In this document: positions 42,783-51,585 of the stretch, piece by piece
Position numbering within the stretch: position 1 is the first letter of the stretch
Layout of the letters: every line of letters begins with the position of its first letter
DNA from: Sphingobacteriales bacterium TSM_CSS
Lineage (GTDB): Bacteria > Bacteroidota > Bacteroidia > Chitinophagales > UBA2359
Reading direction: 5' to 3'
NCBI GenBank assembly: GCA_002212985.1
Contig: NBMY01000115.1
Location: 1-64,000, forward strand
Length of the DNA: 64,000 nucleotides
Translations under genes and position numbers: made by a program
Notes under the pieces: model-generated
The model's input: the letters and a program-made list of their open reading frames with translations, nothing else
Told to the model about the DNA's origin: nothing
Database searches by the model: none

Positions 42783-42798
42783 TATGACTGAAGTCATA
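42783..42798 (+). promoter_or_regulatory. CRP/FNR-type operator of the nos cluster
   Basis: TATGAC-TGAA-GTCATA is a perfect 6-4-6 palindrome with the TGA-N6-TCA core of CRP/FNR-family sites. Its centre (42790.5) is about 41.5 bp upstream of the start predicted from the -7 element at 42820-42827, the class II activator position. Confidence 0.72.
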
Positions 42799-42819
42799 AA
42801 ACACGGGGTGCACTTCAGT

Positions 42820-42827
42820 TAACTTTG
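42820..42827 (+). promoter_or_regulatory. -7 element of the nos cluster promoter
   Basis: TAACTTTG matches TAnnTTTG; no TTTG exists at -33, as expected for an activator-dependent promoter. Transcription would start near 42832, about 69 nt before the cytochrome gene. Confidence 0.65.
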
Positions 42828-42900
42828 CATTATAAAATGAAACCCAAAATGAGTTGTTCTTTGTAAACAACCGCTATTCTTCATCTAAAAGCAAATAGAA

Positions 42901-43389
42901 ATGAAAAAGATTGCTATTTTTTTAAGCCTTGTCATTTTTTTGACTTCCTGTGGCGGCGGACAAGTAACCCCGCCCCCCGCAACTATTGAAAAAACAAGCG
43001 GAGGCGGAAGCAATGCTACAGATGCTGCCGCCGGCAACACGGTAGCGGCAGGTAAAGGTATTGGACAAATTACCTCTGTAGAACTAAAAACCCCGCTGGA
43101 GCAAGATCGCATAGGAAGAGGTAAAAGCATTTATGACATGAAATGCCAGGCCTGCCACAAACTTACCGATGAACGGCTGGTAGGCCCGGGTTGGAAAGAC
43201 GTTACCAAACGCCGCAAACCCGAATGGATTATGAACATGGTTACCAACGTTGACGCAATGCTGGAACAAGACCCCGAAGCACAAAAACTCCTCGAACTGT
43301 GTTTAACCCGAATGCCTAACCAAAATATATCGGTAGGCGACGCCCGCGATGTGCTGGAGTTTATGCGCCAAAACGACGGGGAAAAATAA
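42901..43389 (+). CDS. Lipoprotein cytochrome c, nos-associated
   Basis: 162 residues. The lipobox is FLTSCGG; a Gly/Ala/Thr-rich linker of about 50 residues follows; one haem site is YDMKCQACHKL, and a Met ligand is probably in LTRMPNQN. It is the first gene after the CRP/FNR-type box and precedes nosZ by 66 bp. A c-type cytochrome in this position is usual for clade II nos clusters and probably delivers electrons to NosZ from the quinol pool. Confidence 0.92.
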   Translation: MKKIAIFLSLVIFLTSCGGGQVTPPPATIEKTSGGGSNATDAAAGNTVAAGKGIGQITSVELKTPLEQDRIGRGKSIYDMKCQACHKLTDERLVGPGWKDVTKRRKPEWIMNMVTNVDAMLEQDPEAQKLLELCLTRMPNQNISVGDARDVLEFMRQNDGEK

Positions 43390-43455: not shown

Positions 43456-45456
43456 ATGAAAACTTCTTTCTCTTTTAAGTCTTGGCTTGCAGCTATCGGC
43501 ATTTTTGTTGTTGTGGTTGCGTTGTCCATAAATGGTTGTAAACCGCGCAATGTTGCCACTGCTGTGCAGGGCGATGCTGCCGGTAAAGTATATGTAGCCC
43601 CGGGTAAATACGATGAATTTTACAACTTTGTATCGGGCGGTTTCAGCGGACAAATGAGCGTTTACGGACTTCCATCGGGAAGAATGCTGAAAGTGATGCC
43701 TGTTTTTTCGGTAAACCCCGAAAGCGGCTACGGTTATTCCGAAGAATCCAAACCCATGCTCAACACCTCCCACGGGTTTGTACCTTGGGATGATTTACAC
43801 CACCCCGAATTGTCGCAAACCGATGGCGAAGTGGACGGACGTTGGGTGTTTGGCAATGCCAACAATACGCCGCGTATTGCCCGTATTGACCTTAAAACGT
43901 TCAGAACTGCCGAAATTATTGAAATTCCGAACAGCAGCGGTAACCACTCCTCGCCGTTTATTACCGAAAATACCGAATATGTAGTAGCGGGCACCCGTTT
44001 CAGTTATCCTATTGATGACAATGGAAGCAACCCCGATGTATCTATTAACACCTATAAAGATAACTTTAAAGGTACGGTTTCTTTTGTAAGCGTTGATAAA
44101 GCCACGGGCGCTATGGATATTGCCTTCCAGATTTTACTGCCCGGCGTTAACTTTGACCTTGCCCACTCCGGCAAAGGCCCCTCCAGCGGCTGGTTCTTCT
44201 TCTCTTGCTACAATACCGAGCAAGCCTATACCCTGCTGGAAGTAAACGCCTCGCAAAAAGACAAAGACTTCATTATGGCCGTGAACTGGAAAAAAGCCGA
44301 AGAATATGTTAAACAAGGTAAAGGTAAAAAAATGAGTGTGCGCTATGCCAGCAACCGCTATGATGAGGGAACCCATACCGCCACCTCTACCATTAAAAAC
44401 CAAGTGTTGGTACTTGACCCAAAAGAACTGGCCGATATGGTATATTTTATTCCGTGTCCCAAATCACCGCACGGCTGCGATGTGGACCCCACCGGCCAAT
44501 ATATTGTGGGTAGCGGTAAATTGGCTGCCACCATACCCGTATTTTCGTTTGCCAAAATACAAACCGCCATTCAGGGCAAAGACTTTGACGGCGATTTTGC
44601 CGGTATTCCGGTAATCAAATATGAATCGGCATTGCACGGTGAAGTAAAAAAACCGGGCTTAGGCCCTCTACACACCGAATTTGACGGAAAAGGTAATGCC
44701 TATACCTCTTTCTTTGTATCTTCGGAAATTGTAAAATGGAATATTGACAAATTGGAAGTGCTCGACCGCGTTCCTACTTATTACTCCATCGGCCACCTTT
44801 GCGTGCCGGGCGGCGACTCTAAAAAACCCTTTGGTAAATATGTAATTGCCTACAATAAAATTACCAAAGACCGCTACCTCCCCACCGGACCCGAATTAAC
44901 CCAATCGGCACAACTGTACGATATTTCGGGCGACAAAATGCAATTACTGCTCGACTTCCCCACCATTGGCGAACCGCACTATGCACAGGCTTGTCCGGCA
45001 GAATTGCTCATGAAAAACTCGACTAAAATCTACAAAATTGAAGAAAACCGAAATGCCTATGCAGCCAAAGGTGAAGGGCAAAGTAAGGTGGAACGCAAAG
45101 GTAAAGAAGTGCATGTTTACATGACTTCCATTCGCTCACACTTCTCGCCCGATAATATTGAAGGGGTAAAAATGGGCGATGATGTTTACTTCCATGTAAC
45201 CAATCTGGAACAAGACTGGGACGTACCCCACGGCTTTGCTATAAAAGGCGCCAACAATGCCGAACTGCTCATTATGCCGGGCGAAACTCAAACGCTGAAA
45301 TGGACACCCGACCGCATTGGCGTATTTCCGTTATATTGCACCGACTTTTGCTCTGCGCTGCACCAGGAAATGCAAGGTTACCTGCGCGTTTCGCCTGCCG
45401 GCTCAAACGTGCCGCTTACCTTCTCAATGGGTAAAAACAGCAGCAAGCCGGAATAA
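43456..45456 (+). CDS. nosZ: Nitrous oxide reductase, clade II (Sec-type)
   Basis: 666 residues. It reduces N2O to N2 in the periplasm. The propeller with the CuZ histidines includes DDLHHPELS, SGNHSSPF, FDLAHSGKG, SPHGCDVD, LGPLHTEFD, YSIGHLCVP and GEPHYAQACP. The C-terminal cupredoxin carries CuA in YCTDFCSALHQEM. The signal is Sec-type without twin Arg and ends in LSINGC, possibly a lipobox. Sec export, the adjacent cytochrome c and the NosL fusion place it in clade II. No nirK, nirS or nor gene is in the window. Confidence 0.97.
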   Translation: MKTSFSFKSWLAAIGIFVVVVALSINGCKPRNVATAVQGDAAGKVYVAPGKYDEFYNFVSGGFSGQMSVYGLPSGRMLKVMPVFSVNPESGYGYSEESKPMLNTSHGFVPWDDLHHPELSQTDGEVDGRWVFGNANNTPRIARIDLKTFRTAEIIEIPNSSGNHSSPFITENTEYVVAGTRFSYPIDDNGSNPDVSINTYKDNFKGTVSFVSVDKATGAMDIAFQILLPGVNFDLAHSGKGPSSGWFFFSCYNTEQAYTLLEVNASQKDKDFIMAVNWKKAEEYVKQGKGKKMSVRYASNRYDEGTHTATSTIKNQVLVLDPKELADMVYFIPCPKSPHGCDVDPTGQYIVGSGKLAATIPVFSFAKIQTAIQGKDFDGDFAGIPVIKYESALHGEVKKPGLGPLHTEFDGKGNAYTSFFVSSEIVKWNIDKLEVLDRVPTYYSIGHLCVPGGDSKKPFGKYVIAYNKITKDRYLPTGPELTQSAQLYDISGDKMQLLLDFPTIGEPHYAQACPAELLMKNSTKIYKIEENRNAYAAKGEGQSKVERKGKEVHVYMTSIRSHFSPDNIEGVKMGDDVYFHVTNLEQDWDVPHGFAIKGANNAELLIMPGETQTLKWTPDRIGVFPLYCTDFCSALHQEMQGYLRVSPAGSNVPLTFSMGKNSSKPE

Positions 45457-45620: not shown

Positions 45621-46661
45621 ATGAACAAGCTATCAAAAATTACAAGGGTATTCATTGCCGGCTCTGCGCTTTTGCTCATTGCCACTTACTTTTTACCCGC
45701 ATGGAAAATTCTTCTGTGGGCGCCCCAATACCCCGAAGGATTGGAAATGAAAATATGGCTCACCAAACTATCGGGCGATGTAAAGGTGATTAACGGGCTA
45801 AACCATTACATCGGCATGAAAGAAATTCACGAAGAAATGTTTCCCGAATTTACCTGGCTTCCTTATATTGTAGCATTTTACATTGCAATTGGTTTGGCAG
45901 TAAGCCTGCTCAACCGCCGAATGGGGTTGTTGGTATATGTGTTGCTGCTCATTGCCGGCGCCGCTGCCGCCCTTACCGATTTTTACCTTTGGGGCTACGA
46001 CTATGGACACAACCTGAACCCCGATGCTGCTATTGTGGTACCGGGCATGGCTTATCAGCCTCCTTTGCTGGGGTATAAAGTGCTGCTCAACTTTACTGCT
46101 CTTTCTATACCCGATACCGGCGGCTGGATTTTTACCGCCGTAGGTGCAATTGCTATTTTGTGCCTTGTATATGAATTTTGGAGAAGCCGCAACCTAAAAA
46201 CACAAAGTAAACCTGCCACTGCAATTGTGACCTTTGTTCTGCTTACTTCCGTGTTGCTGTCTTTTACCTCTTGCGGCATTGAACCCCGCCCCATTAACTA
46301 TGGTAAGGACATATGCAGCCACTGCAAAATGACCCTCGTGGACAAACGATTTGGTGCCGAAGCAGTTAGCAAAAAAGGTAAAGTATTTGTTTTTGATGAT
46401 TTGGGATGTATGTCCGCATGGGCAAAATCGGGCGAGGTAAAAACCGATGCTATTGCTTTGTGGCTAACCGCCGATTTTTCTGAACAAGGAACGCTAACCG
46501 ATGCCACTAAATCCTTTTACCTGCAACACCCCGAACTGAAAAGCCCCATGGCTTCCAATATTGCCGGTTTTGCGCAGGAAAACGGGTTAAAAACCGTACA
46601 AAACCAATTGGGCAATGGTAGAACTTTAACCTGGCCCGAAGTATTAAACAGTAACAGGTAA
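45621..46661 (+). CDS. nosL: Membrane-domain/NosL fusion, copper chaperone for NosZ
   Basis: 346 residues. The N-terminal half has four membrane helices (about 9-31, 80-98, 101-120, 165-186) and no named domain. A further hydrophobic segment runs to LLSFTSC (Cys 218), the lipobox of an ordinary NosL, then ICSHCKMTLVDKRFGAEAV, the Cu(I)-binding NosL motif, and a full NosL domain to the end. NosL delivers copper to NosZ. The retained internal lipobox suggests fusion of a membrane protein with a former lipoprotein. Confidence 0.88.
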   Translation: MNKLSKITRVFIAGSALLLIATYFLPAWKILLWAPQYPEGLEMKIWLTKLSGDVKVINGLNHYIGMKEIHEEMFPEFTWLPYIVAFYIAIGLAVSLLNRRMGLLVYVLLLIAGAAAALTDFYLWGYDYGHNLNPDAAIVVPGMAYQPPLLGYKVLLNFTALSIPDTGGWIFTAVGAIAILCLVYEFWRSRNLKTQSKPATAIVTFVLLTSVLLSFTSCGIEPRPINYGKDICSHCKMTLVDKRFGAEAVSKKGKVFVFDDLGCMSAWAKSGEVKTDAIALWLTADFSEQGTLTDATKSFYLQHPELKSPMASNIAGFAQENGLKTVQNQLGNGRTLTWPEVLNSNR

Positions 46662-46724: not shown

Positions 46725-47984
46725 ATGTTGTACCGCATATTTATCTGCTTTTTCCTGTTACTAACTTCCCAAAATTGTGCCTTTGCCGCCACTGTAGAGG
46801 TTTGCCCCAACTGCAACACAACTTCCGTTGCACAAGCCATTAATATAGCACAACCCTGCGATACAGTGCTGGTTCAAGCCGGAACCTACCACGAACCAAC
46901 CCTGCTGATTGATAAGCCGCTTTTCTTAATTGGCCGCAATTTCCCCATTCTCGACGGGCAGGAAAAAGTGGAAATTATTTCGGTACAAGCCAGCCAGGTA
47001 GTCATTGACGGGTTTCAAATAATAAACGCCGCCTTTTCCAGTTCAAGAGAACTTGCCGGCATAAATGTTATGAACGCCGGCTATATACAAATTAGTAACA
47101 ACCGGTTAAACAACACCTGTTTTGGCATTTACTTAGCCAATGTTAACAACAGCGCCATTCTTAACAACACCCTGCAGGCACAGGCAACCATAGAATTAAG
47201 CGCCGGAAACGGCATCCATGCATGGAAATGCAACAACCTGCTAATAAACGGCAATACCGTGACCGGCCACCGCGATGGTATTTACTTTGAATTTGTAACC
47301 TACTCTTCCATTATCAACAACCACAGTCACAAAAACCTGCGTTACGGGTTGCACTTTATGTTCTCCAACAACGACCGCTACCAAAACAACATTTTTGAAA
47401 ATAACGGCGCCGGCGTTGCCGTCATGTACAGCAACAAGGTAACTATGATTAACAACCATTTTGTACACAACTGGGGCGACAGCGCCTACGGCTTACTGCT
47501 GAAAGACATAGCCGACAGCCATATTGAAGGTAATTTGTTTGAAGAAAATACCACCGGCATACACATGGAAGGCAGCAGCAGAATGGATCTGATTTATAAT
47601 ACCTTTACCCAAAACGGTTGGGCAGTGCAACTGCAGGCCAGTTGCGACAACAATGATTTTAGTAACAATAATTTTACCGGAAATACTTTTGATATTGCCA
47701 CCAATGGCACATTAGTGCTTAATAAAATTAACCACAACTTCTGGGATAAATATGAAGGCTACGACCTGAATAAAGACGGCATTGGCGATGTGCCCTACCG
47801 CCCGGTGAGCCTCTACTCTATGTTGGTTGCCGAAATGCCCTTTACCATTATGCTTTGGCGCAGCTTTGTGGTGTATCTTATAGACCGCATGGAAAAACTC
47901 CTGCCAAGCCTTACCCCCGAAAACATGCTGGATTCTTCGCCACTTATGAAAAAAGTAAATTATGATACAAGTAAATCAACTTAA
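46725..47984 (+). CDS. nosD: NosD, periplasmic NosZ maturation factor
   Basis: 419 residues with a signal peptide and a right-handed beta-helix of many short repeats rich in Asn (for example NNRLNNTCFGIYLANVNNSA and ENNGAGVAVMYSN). NosD belongs to the CASH/pectate lyase-like fold and supports sulfur/copper loading of the CuZ site with the NosFY ABC transporter. A TAAGTTTG element at 46671-46678 may give an extra promoter. Its 3' end overlaps nosF by 23 bases. Confidence 0.94.
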   Translation: MLYRIFICFFLLLTSQNCAFAATVEVCPNCNTTSVAQAINIAQPCDTVLVQAGTYHEPTLLIDKPLFLIGRNFPILDGQEKVEIISVQASQVVIDGFQIINAAFSSSRELAGINVMNAGYIQISNNRLNNTCFGIYLANVNNSAILNNTLQAQATIELSAGNGIHAWKCNNLLINGNTVTGHRDGIYFEFVTYSSIINNHSHKNLRYGLHFMFSNNDRYQNNIFENNGAGVAVMYSNKVTMINNHFVHNWGDSAYGLLLKDIADSHIEGNLFEENTTGIHMEGSSRMDLIYNTFTQNGWAVQLQASCDNNDFSNNNFTGNTFDIATNGTLVLNKINHNFWDKYEGYDLNKDGIGDVPYRPVSLYSMLVAEMPFTIMLWRSFVVYLIDRMEKLLPSLTPENMLDSSPLMKKVNYDTSKST

Positions 47985-48693
47985 CAAAAAATTTGGCAGT
48001 CTTCATGCCCTCAAAGACGTAAATGTGTCGTTCAACACAGGGCAGGTAGTAGCAGTCATAGGGCCAAACGGTTCGGGAAAAACCACGTTCATTAAATGCC
48101 TGCTGGGCATGGTATTACCAGATACCGGCCAAATTTTGTTTGATGGGCAAAACATTGCCAACAACTGGAACTACCGCCGCCATATAGGATATATGCCCCA
48201 AATTGGCCGCTACCCCGATAACATGGAAGTAGGGCAATTGTTTGAAATGATGAAAGACATACGAACCGAAAACAACCTTGCCCCGATAACAGACACTGAA
48301 CTGCTGGATTCCTTTGAAATGGAAAAAATTAACCAAAAACCCATGCGCACCCTTTCGGGCGGAACCCGGCAAAAAGTTAGCGCCTGCCTGGCTTTCCTCT
48401 TCGGGCCAAAAGTGTTGATTTTAGATGAACCAACCACCGGATTAGACCCTTTGTCGGCAGAAATTCTGAAAGCCAAAATTGCCCGCGAAAAAACCAACAA
48501 CAAACTGGTACTTATAACCTCCCATATATTGAGCGACCTTGACGAACTGGTAACCGATGTGCTGTATATTTTTGAAGGCGATGTGCTTTTTTATAAACCA
48601 CTTCAAAACCTTAAAACCGATACCGGCGAAGACAAACTAAGCCGAGCCATAGCCAAAATTATACAATCGGGACACAAATTAACGCAGGCGTAG
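47962..48693 (+). CDS. nosF: NosF, ABC transporter ATP-binding protein
   Basis: 243 residues. Walker A is GPNGSGKTT, the signature LSGGTRQKVSACLAF, and Walker B VLILDEPTTGLDP. It pairs with NosY to move a sulfur species or otherwise energise NosZ maturation. Its start lies inside the end of nosD, so translation is probably coupled. Confidence 0.94.
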   Translation: MIQVNQLNKKFGSLHALKDVNVSFNTGQVVAVIGPNGSGKTTFIKCLLGMVLPDTGQILFDGQNIANNWNYRRHIGYMPQIGRYPDNMEVGQLFEMMKDIRTENNLAPITDTELLDSFEMEKINQKPMRTLSGGTRQKVSACLAFLFGPKVLILDEPTTGLDPLSAEILKAKIAREKTNNKLVLITSHILSDLDELVTDVLYIFEGDVLFYKPLQNLKTDTGEDKLSRAIAKIIQSGHKLTQA

Positions 48694-48784: not shown

Positions 48785-49516
48785 ATGAACCACCTCATAA
48801 GCCCCTCCGAAACCGTAGGGCAAATTGTTGCCCGAAACTTCAACACGGCAACCGTGTTTGAAAAATATAATATAGACTTTTGCTGCGGTGGCAAAAAAAC
48901 GCTGCAAACTGTTTGCGCCGAACAACACCTTAATTTCGACACACTATACCTTGAGGTAGAAGAAGCCGCCAACAGGCAGGTGCCGCCCTCACAAAATGCC
49001 GCCTATTGGTCACTAACCTTTTTAACCGAATACATTGTACATACACACCATCGGTATGTTCAAGAGTCAATTCCGGTACTGTTAAAATATACTGCCAAAA
49101 TTGCCTCGGTGCATGGTAAAAACCACCCCGAACTTATTGAGGTAGCACGCCTTTTTGCCGAACTTGCCCAAGACCTGTTGCAACACATGAAAAAAGAAGA
49201 AATTATTTTATTCCCATACATTAACGATCTGGCTGACGGCAATAATATGTCAATTCCTTCCACAACTTTTGGCTCGGTTAACAGCCCTATAATGGTAATG
49301 GAGCAAGAACACGAAACCGCCGGCAACCTCATGCACCAAATAAGAACACTTACCCATAACTACACCTTGCCCGATGATGCCTGCAATACATACGGCGTAA
49401 CCTTTGCCCGCCTGCAAGAGTTTGAAACAGACCTGCACCGGCATGTACACTTAGAAAACAACATTCTTTTCCCAAAAACCAAACAACTAGAGCAAACCTT
49501 GACCGACGGAAAATAA
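48785..49516 (+). CDS. ric: Iron-sulfur cluster repair di-iron protein (Ric/ScdA/YtfE)
   Basis: 243 residues. The N-terminal DUF542 domain shows the YNIDFCCGGKKTL motif; the rest is hemerythrin-like with His/Glu ligands in VHTHHRYV, HMKKEEIIL, EQEHETAG and HRHVHLENNIL. It repairs Fe-S clusters damaged by nitric oxide or oxidants. It sits inside the nos cluster, between nosF and a membrane protein gene, which links N2O respiration to protection against nitrosative stress. Confidence 0.94.
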   Translation: MNHLISPSETVGQIVARNFNTATVFEKYNIDFCCGGKKTLQTVCAEQHLNFDTLYLEVEEAANRQVPPSQNAAYWSLTFLTEYIVHTHHRYVQESIPVLLKYTAKIASVHGKNHPELIEVARLFAELAQDLLQHMKKEEIILFPYINDLADGNNMSIPSTTFGSVNSPIMVMEQEHETAGNLMHQIRTLTHNYTLPDDACNTYGVTFARLQEFETDLHRHVHLENNILFPKTKQLEQTLTDGK

Positions 49517-49589: not shown

Positions 49590-50825
49590 ATGTACCAATC
49601 CCTGCAAATTATGCACCGCAAATGGCTTTTAACAGCATTTGTCTGGTTTTTTGTGGCCGCATCTTTGGGGTTATTGCTTCGGGTTTCCTTGTTTTACAAC
49701 CTGTCATTTACCTTTAACTACAAGTTTATGCTCCATGCCCACTCGCATGTAATGTTCATGGGCTGGCTGTTTAACCTGTTGTATATAGCCTTGGTTGGCA
49801 CGTTTATAAACCCTGCTGCTGCCCCGCGGCGGTATGCTGCCTTGTTTTATATATTTCAGGTATCGGTGGCGGGCATGTTGTTGGCTTTTCCGGTGCAGGG
49901 ATATGCAGCCGTTTCTATTGCTTTTTCTACTTTACACGTATTTGCCGATTACCTTTTTGCCTTTAGATTTTTCAAAGATACGGAAAACCCGAACCACAGC
50001 AGCAATTATGCCTTGCTGTTTGCCCGTTGGGCAGTAGTTTTTATGGTGCTTTCAACGATTGGTCCCTATGGGTTGGGTTATGCCATGGCAAACGGCTTGC
50101 AAAACACTGCATTTTACCATCTTTGCATCTACTTTTATCTGCATTTTCAGTACAACGGATGGCTAATTTTTGGCATTACTGCCCTTGTTTTGCACCATTT
50201 GGCACAGGCAGGAGTAGCGCTGCCTGCCCTACAAATGCAATGGTTTTTGCGGCTTATGGTATTTTCTTGTGTGGTTTCTTTCAGTTTATCTGCCTTGTTT
50301 ACCCATCCGCCGCTTTGGGTTTATGTGGCAGGGCTTGTTTCGGGCAGTATGCAGGCAGTGTCTATTCTGCTAACGGCGCCGCTTATATGGCAGCACCGCA
50401 GCAGGTTTGGCGCATCGGGCAGTATAACCCGATGGCTGTTTGGGTTAAGCGCGTTATCTTTCGTACTTAAAGCATTGCTTCAATTGGCATCGGCATTTGC
50501 GCCCGTTGCCGATTTTGCTTTTCAACACCGAAATATTATTATAGCCTATTTGCATCTGGTGTTTTTAGGTGTTGGCACTTTCTTTTTCCTTGCATATTTT
50601 GCACAAAACGGTCTGTTGTCATTTAAACTCCCGGTTGTACGGTGCGCTACATTTTTATTGCTTGGCGGTTTTGTAATTACCCAAACATTGCTCATTTTGC
50701 AGCTTTATTTTTCTGTAGAATGGCTGTTGGCACTGGCTACCGCTTTTTTACCGGCAAGTGCCCTGCTGTTTACCGCAGCAGCAGCACAATCAAATACAGT
50801 TTACAAAACCAACCAAAATGGGTAA
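49590..50825 (+). CDS. Polytopic membrane protein, haem-copper oxidase I/NnrS-like in pattern
   Basis: 411 residues with about 12 membrane helices. His-rich helix ends such as FMLHAHSHVMFMGW, YFYLHFQYNGW and IIIAYLHLVFLG recall haem-copper oxidase subunit I or NnrS-type proteins, but the set of six metal ligands of a catalytic oxidase is not evident. It may bind haem and act in NO or copper handling. It overlaps the start of nosY by eight bases, so the two are co-translated. The assignment is tentative. Confidence 0.6.
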   Translation: MYQSLQIMHRKWLLTAFVWFFVAASLGLLLRVSLFYNLSFTFNYKFMLHAHSHVMFMGWLFNLLYIALVGTFINPAAAPRRYAALFYIFQVSVAGMLLAFPVQGYAAVSIAFSTLHVFADYLFAFRFFKDTENPNHSSNYALLFARWAVVFMVLSTIGPYGLGYAMANGLQNTAFYHLCIYFYLHFQYNGWLIFGITALVLHHLAQAGVALPALQMQWFLRLMVFSCVVSFSLSALFTHPPLWVYVAGLVSGSMQAVSILLTAPLIWQHRSRFGASGSITRWLFGLSALSFVLKALLQLASAFAPVADFAFQHRNIIIAYLHLVFLGVGTFFFLAYFAQNGLLSFKLPVVRCATFLLLGGFVITQTLLILQLYFSVEWLLALATAFLPASALLFTAAAAQSNTVYKTNQNG

Positions 50826-51585
50826 AATTATAAAATACGTTCTTTACGATATTCTGCAAAACAAAATTATTATTGCCTATTCTTTGTTCTTGCTGTTGGT
50901 AAGCATCAGTTTTCTTAGCCTCGAAAACGATTCGGGAAAAGGTACTTTGAGTTTGCTCAACATCATACTTATTGTGTTGCCACTGGTTAGTATTGTGTTC
51001 TCTACCATTCACTTTTACAATTCCTACGAATTTATTGAACTGCTTATTGCCCAGCCCTTGCCCCGCAACAAAATATTGCTGAGCGAGTTTTTAGGCGTTT
51101 GCATTGCCCTTTTGGTGGGGTTTGCCATTGGAGTGGGATTGCCTATTGTCATGCTAAGTTTTAACCAAGCCGGCGCCATGTTGCTGCTTTCGGGCGCACT
51201 ACTTACGGTAGTTTTTACCTCGCTGGCGTTCTGGGCATCGGTTATTACCAACGATAAGGCAAAAGGCATTGGCATTTCGCTCATGTTGTGGTTTTACTTT
51301 TCGCTCATATATGACGGGCTGGTGCTTATGCTGCTGTTTACTTTTGGCGATTACCCGCTCGAAAAAGCCGTAATGGTACTTACCGCCCTTAACCCCGTTG
51401 ACCTTGGACGAATTATGATTTTGCTCAAATTAGATGCTTCGGCTCTTATGGGATACACCGGCGCTTTATACAAAAACTTTTTTGGCAGCGGCTATGGTAC
51501 GGCAATAGCATCGGCAGTTATGTTGGTTTGGGCAATAGTGCCGTTGCTTTTAGCCCTGCGCATGTTCAAACAAAAGGATTTGTAA
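50818..51585 (+). CDS. nosY: NosY, ABC transporter permease
   Basis: 255 residues from the ATG at 50818; an upstream extension of the frame overlaps the previous gene and is not used. Six membrane helices are visible, and the segment HFYNSYEFIELLIAQPLPR followed by ILLSEFLG is characteristic of NosY-type permeases. It works with NosF (encoded 2.1 kb upstream) and NosD in the maturation of NosZ. The separation from nosF by two genes is unusual. Confidence 0.92.
   Translation: MGKIIKYVLYDILQNKIIIAYSLFLLLVSISFLSLENDSGKGTLSLLNIILIVLPLVSIVFSTIHFYNSYEFIELLIAQPLPRNKILLSEFLGVCIALLVGFAIGVGLPIVMLSFNQAGAMLLLSGALLTVVFTSLAFWASVITNDKAKGIGISLMLWFYFSLIYDGLVLMLLFTFGDYPLEKAVMVLTALNPVDLGRIMILLKLDASALMGYTGALYKNFFGSGYGTAIASAVMLVWAIVPLLLALRMFKQKDL

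Follow-up and report, generated by a model that had tools for sequence, protein, structure and literature searches.

The clade II nos operon on the + strand of the DNA analysed here (a stretch of 64 kb, called the window) is preceded by a perfect inverted repeat, TATGAC-TGAA-GTCATA (TATGACTGAAGTCATA, 42783-42798, + strand). With a probability of about three in four, this box is a class II activator operator, bound by a dimer of a CRP/FNR-type regulator with the recognition helix LRVETVIR, which recruits RNA polymerase to nos and governs a small nos-associated regulon. What computation shows is the site itself, the conservation of its spacing, its tendency to occur together with the regulator subfamily, and its recurrence at nos-associated genes. 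The positions of the box and of the octamer TAACTTTG (42820-42827, + strand), both reported in a first-pass annotation of this DNA, were confirmed. The promoter and the operon comprise the following features.

42783-42798 (+): proposed class II CRP/FNR-type activator site, -49 to -34, centre -41.5; spacing shared by 47 of 78 nos promoters
42820-42827 (+): TAACTTTG, matching the Bacteroidota -7 element TAnnTTTG, -12 to -5; element and position according to PMC9723704
42832 (+): predicted transcription start (+1), from placement of the octamer at -12 to -5
42901-43389 (+): c-type cytochrome, first gene of the operon (PF00034)
43456-45456 (+): nosZ, Sec-dependent (clade II) nitrous-oxide reductase (TIGR04246, 950.7 bits, cut-off 625)
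45621-46661 (+): NosL-domain protein with a membrane part at the N-terminus (PF05573 at 229-340)
46725-47984 (+): NosD-like protein, labelled by eye
47962-48693 (+): NosF-like ABC ATPase, labelled by eye
48785-49516 (+): RIC/ScdA-type di-iron Fe-S cluster repair protein (TIGR03652, 246.8 bits, cut-off 204.7)
49590-50825 (+): polytopic membrane protein of 411 aa with LHAHSH; in other species, homologues close to nos are preceded by a box of their own
50824-51585 (+): NosY-like ABC-2 permease (PF12679)

The sigma-A promoter of Bacteroidota includes a TTTG element at -33. The nos promoter of the window contains the -7 TAnnTTTG element and is without TTTG at -33, its segment from -40 to -25 reading AGTCATAAAACACGGG. 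Box and octamer are separated by 37 bp, start to start. Mapped starts of Flavobacterium psychrophilum place TAnnTTTG at -12 to -5 (PMC9723704); applied to the window, this placement predicts +1 at 42832 and puts the centre of the box (42790.5) at -41.5, the position near which class II sites are centred. The class II position and the missing -33 TTTG, as proposed in the first-pass annotation, hold up, with the same spacing found in 47 of 78 nos promoters and the position itself counted from the predicted +1.

Perfect inverted repeats of this shape are not rare on their own: there are 26 perfect 6-N4-6 repeats in the 64 kb window, of which the nos box is the only one between 42450 and 42900. 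The exact 12 specified bases of the box have an expectation of 0.006 per 64 kb and 0.4 per 4.49 Mb. At up to three mismatches, the box pattern has 24 matches in the window against 17.6 expected, a count reached by 9 of 100 shuffles, and all matches other than the box carry three mismatches, which corresponds to the background frequency. A second copy of the exact box was sought throughout the 4.49 Mb assembly of the window's own genome (87% complete) and was not found; in the same assembly, the patterns ATGACN4GTCAT and TATGAYN4RTCATA are both confined to a single place, the nos promoter. The many perfect repeats of the window and the single genomic copy of the exact box would suit a palindrome that arose by chance and has no function. 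Such an origin is extremely improbable, given that 47 of 78 nos promoters share sequence and exact spacing, where shuffles yield 0-1, and that the box recurs at nos-associated genes. Conservation is the main evidence against chance.

To follow the box across species, 80 nos loci were fetched, the best 80 of 549 confirmed relatives and thus a set biased towards the NosZ of the window; 77 of these loci, with at least 550 nt upstream, together with the window make up the 78 promoters. Upstream of nosZ, the distance from TGA-N6-TCA to TTTG peaks at 39, the spacing of the window (30 of the 80 loci), and 16 loci form a second peak at 61 (both among the best 80 of 549). A control histogram of the nosZ coding region has no peak at 39 and one at 58, which stems from a conserved coding stretch. 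Under an earlier and stricter definition (TATGAYN4RTCATA with at most one mismatch and a TTG-ending octamer at 36-38 bp), the box was present in 27 of the 78 promoters (best 80 of 549 plus the window) as against none in 20 dinucleotide shuffles; TTG stood at offset 42 in 23 loci, and every other offset was represented by four loci at most (best 80 of 549).

Loci with an adjacent regulator gene revealed a second form of the half-site, TATGCG, and a second form of the -7 element, TAATCTTG. The definition was accordingly widened, after the loci had been seen, to TATG(AY/CG)-N4-(RT/CG)CATA with a TTG-ending octamer. It is matched at a spacing of 37-38 bp by 47 of the 78 nos promoters (best 80 of 549 plus the window), compared with 0-1 in shuffles of 2-base blocks, and TTG lies at offset 42 in 43 of these and at 43 in the other 4. 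Across the 47 sites the left TATG is nearly invariant and the right CATA invariant, a pattern partly built in by selection on the outer letters; position 2 is A in 44 sites and G in 2, T occupies position 7 in 40 sites, and A occupies position 10 in 41. The locus from the same genus carries TGTGATTGTGGTCATA at spacing 38, and a MAFFT alignment with the window promoter misplaced its box. Asymmetric operators are common, with CGCATA on the right (TATGCG on the other strand) and TATGAY on the left. In regulator-linked nos promoters the -7 octamer is most often TAATCTTG rather than TAnnTTTG (19 of 47). An earlier impression that nos loci with an adjacent regulator lack the box was dropped, as TTTG had been required there; their octamer is mostly TAATCTTG, and the box is present at the right spacing. 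The TTTG-based table (n = 73: 32 box only, 4 both, 30 adjacent gene only, 7 neither) was withdrawn with it. The box is missing from 31 of the 78 promoters (best 80 of 549 plus the window). Fifteen of these have another arrangement, TGAY-N4-RTCA, often in tandem, so the nos box is not the sole way to drive nos.

The regulator of the box probably belongs to a CRP/FNR subfamily with the recognition helix LRVETVIR. With a local profile of the CRP/FNR proteins of the window's own genome, CRP/FNR genes were found in many of the 80 nos loci (best 80 of 549), mostly divergent, some 600-1,060 bp upstream of nosZ, and with the recognition helix TRQQIADMTGLRVETVIR. In 29 of the 78 loci, the 1.4 kb upstream of nosZ include an LRVETVIR-type gene; the box accompanies it in 27 of these 29 and is present in 20 of the 49 others (best 80 of 549 plus the window). 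The window's own genome encodes six CRP/FNR proteins above the Pfam cut-off. Two of them, L006 (contig C156) and L007 (contig C57), share 90% identity and the LRVETVIR helix, and both are unlinked to nos. Each is preceded by a copy of one 175-aa lipoprotein-like gene, which amounts to a two-gene duplication. A nos-type box was sought upstream of L006 and of L007 and found at neither, and autoregulation of the two genes in this genome was dropped as an idea for this reason.

L006 was further searched in 50 nos-bearing genomes, which had been picked from the 80 after a first box typing and include related species that are not independent. At E < 1e-30, a close homologue is encoded by 26 of the 28 genomes whose nos promoter has the box and by 4 of the 22 others (Fisher 6e-8). 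The association remains when loci with an adjacent gene are omitted (15 of 17 against 4 of 22) and when near-identical Flavobacterium are collapsed (10 of 12 against 4 of 22, p = 6e-4). The exceptions are two genomes with a box and no close homologue, and four with the regulator and no promoter box. Throughout the 30 regulator-bearing genomes, TATGAYN4RTCATA has 128 sites against 38 in the reversed control; in the 20 regulator-free genomes it has 36 against 36 and is not enriched. These comparisons of sequences support an association of a specific regulator subfamily with the box, which goes beyond what the first-pass annotation had claimed.

L006 is a member of the CRP/FNR superfamily by both of its domains (PF00027, 72 bits, cut-off 27.5; PF13545, 34 bits, cut-off 27). 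Its AlphaFold2 model (pLDDT 88.1) has E. coli CRP as the top PDB match (E 2.1e-15, 24% identity), and its score against the CRP equivalog NF008732 is 51 bits, below the cut-off of 266. Among 31 homologues chosen by score and not by helix, 30 carry LRVETVIR and one LRTETVIR. L006 has a single cysteine and two of the 31 have none; no cysteine falls in an invariant or nearly invariant column of the 31 sequences, and an FNR-type cluster is therefore unlikely. DNR and NnrR respond to NO through haem; the alignment of the L006 homologues contains no invariant His or Cys. In the ExxxR motif of FNR, Glu and Arg read the GA of the half-site, and Ser precedes Arg. L006 keeps E and R, with Ile in front of Arg, and its proposed site keeps TGA, with A in place of the T in front. 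Co-variation of helix and site has been reported within the CRP/FNR family (PMC1274295). The box departs from the CRP half-site TGTGA in that position 2 is mostly A (44 of 47 sites). The earlier statement that the half-site is unlike those of FNR and CRP stands for the outer TA and for the Y after TGA, and fails for the TGA...TCA core, which is common to both and retained here.

A looser form of the site is far more widespread. In 119 genomes of the order, TGAY-N4-RTCA-N23-TAnnTTTG has 329 sites against 15 for the reversed pattern and occurs in 92 of the 119. In the window's own genome, general sites of this kind, 35 bp before a -7 octamer, were noted on five contigs (C61, C28, C160, C162 and C130), in front of a [NiFe] hydrogenase, a universal-stress-protein (Usp) pair (with one mismatch), a YceI-like gene and others. 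The hydrogenase and Usp promoters are tandem, each having a further box some 22 bp upstream. At spacing 40, two matches of this genome fall within coding sequence. A second type of nos promoter, seen in seven loci, has tandem TGAY-N4-RTCA at about -41.5 and -63.5, and the genomes concerned are mostly without an LRVETVIR regulator.

The abundance of the looser class II site (329 against 15) and its presence before hydrogenase and Usp genes leave room for a different reader of the nos box. The window's own genome has four CRP/FNR proteins besides L006 and L007, above all the FNR-like L003 (C35:4551-5258), which has CAHC and further cysteines near its N-terminus, a Cys judged by eye to sit at a position like C122 of FNR, and the helix GTVKETTIRILKDF. 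By its sequence, L003 is possibly the oxygen sensor of this genome and, by eye, a candidate reader of the general class of sites. Were the nos box a class II site of such a paralogue, nos would form part of a general anaerobic regulon. We consider this unlikely: among the 50 genomes picked, the full box with outer TAT/ATA tracks the L006 type (present in 26 of the 28 with the box, as against 4 of the 22 others) and shows no enrichment where that type is absent, and the hydrogenase and Usp sites have no outer TAT, unlike the nos box. A single regulon for all TGAY-N4-RTCA class II sites was likewise dropped, as outer bases and regulator presence set the nos box apart.

The LRVETVIR-type regulator looks like the centre of a narrow, nos-dedicated regulon rather than of a global oxygen regulon. 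In the window, the RIC and LHAHSH genes lie inside the nos operon itself. Elsewhere, box and -7 element stand at the same spacing, with up to one mismatch, before 16 of the 29 LHAHSH homologues whose upstream sequence was long enough (21 at two mismatches), before RIC in 7 of 28 (12 at two) and before FAS1 in 7 of 59 (12 at two), with shuffles giving 0-1. Among the RIC sites, one is located 289 bp upstream, and three come from loci that are close relatives of one another. At E 1e-5, 37 of the 80 loci (best 80 of 549) have a homologue of the LHAHSH protein close to nos. The 411-aa protein of the window has no match in Pfam, NCBIfam or PDB; its motif prompts the guess that it resembles haem-copper oxidases and takes part in N-oxide metabolism. 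The FAS1 (fasciclin) lipoprotein-like gene is a regular partner of Bacteroidota nos clusters (62 of 80 loci), and 30 of the 62 homologues lie on the nosZ strand (both among the best 80 of 549). In the window's own genome, FAS1 is on a separate contig from nos (C169, at 36563), and the relaxed box with TANNNTTG, at one mismatch, occurs at two places, nos and FAS1, with one in the reversed control.

Two COX1-family genes, L124 and L125, were found in this genome. The 1.5 kb flanks of L124 hold no box, and L125 sits at a contig edge, its promoter missing from the assembly. Recurrence of the same 16-mer upstream of nor, nir, ccoN and hcp genes was the check suggested in the first-pass annotation. 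In the window's own genome the exact box occurs once, the relaxed box with a -7 element occurs only at nos and FAS1, and L124 has none; a broad respiratory regulon is not supported here. Such a lack of recurrence is half of what that annotation had named as speaking against its reading, yet conservation across species outweighs it.

We postulate that a dimer of L006, L007 or both binds TATGAY-N4-RTCATA at -41.5. It would lie directly upstream of polymerase bound at the -7 TAnnTTTG, recruit the enzyme and substitute for the missing -33 element. Binding, activation over repression and the start site are inferred. Promoter-side inverted repeats also serve as repressor sites, and a protein on the box might repress, or activate and repress depending on the promoter. 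We regard this as highly unlikely. Activation suits a spacing held at 37 bp, a promoter without a -33 element and a -7 octamer that is frequently poor (19 of 47 read TAATCTTG), and a repressor site would not need a single helical phase. As an activator, the same regulator would control nos and the unlinked FAS1 gene in the window's own genome; in relatives, its targets would extend to RIC, the membrane-protein gene and probably the regulator's own gene. Because RIC mends iron-sulphur clusters damaged by NO, we suspect that the signal is an N-oxide (NO or N2O), which would be sensed without an FNR-type cluster. A broader proposal, which we put forward tentatively and which is more doubtful than not, is that many Bacteroidota with clade II nosZ share a dedicated non-Fe-S CRP/FNR subfamily with a DNA code of its own (TATGAY/TATGCG), which would sense an N-oxide, perhaps N2O, and activate a compact regulon for N2O respiration (nos, FAS1, RIC and LHAHSH genes) in class II fashion at the unusual promoter of the phylum.

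Among Bacteroidota that carry clade II nosZ, N2O reducers devoid of nir genes are frequent (PMC4250227), and a 2018 study described the regulation of N2O reduction outside Proteobacteria as little known (PMC6264515). The proposed activator would probably switch on the removal of this greenhouse gas. With an operator, a promoter geometry and a candidate regulator in hand, the question of regulation becomes directly testable in cultivated Flavobacterium, of which F. cheniae, F. cucumis and F. aquaticum carry the same box. The nos promoter further illustrates one way in which activators of the CRP/FNR type may cooperate with the phylum's -7 TAnnTTTG promoter, and the order-wide enrichment of 329 against 15 suggests a general rule for such activators. 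Among open-licence papers, we found no published description of the nos box or its regulator.

In Proteobacteria, FNR, DNR and NnrR are class II (-41.5) activators of denitrification genes. The proposed system resembles them in its CRP/FNR-type regulator, TGA-N6-TCA core, centre at -41.5 and nos targets (network review PMC1274295). It differs in the outer TAT...ATA and the half-site ATGAY, where theirs is TTGAT, in the -7 TAnnTTTG in place of the sigma-70 -10 element, and in the LRVETVIR helix without an invariant cysteine. HcpR2 of Bacteroides and Porphyromonas likewise belongs to the CRP/FNR family, in Bacteroidota, serves nitrogen-oxide genes and has no FNR-type cysteines (PMC1274295). However, its predicted motif is GTAACnnnnGTTAC, which the box TATGAC-N4-GTCATA does not match, its regulon in most Bacteroides consists of hcp only, and Glu-181, kept in L006, is replaced in HcpR2 (PMC1274295). 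Nitrosophilus labii also combines a clade II nosZ with proposed Crp/Fnr sites, but is a member of the Campylobacterota; the search for its sites used TTGA-N6-TCAA and allowed two mismatches, and the ones ahead of nosZ overlap the predicted start (PMC11539149). In sediment fosmids, Crp/Fnr (nnrR) and rrf2 genes lie beside clade II nosZ, with Crp/Fnr next to nosZ in two scaffolds (PMC6264515). The passages concerned give no binding site, promoter geometry or regulon.
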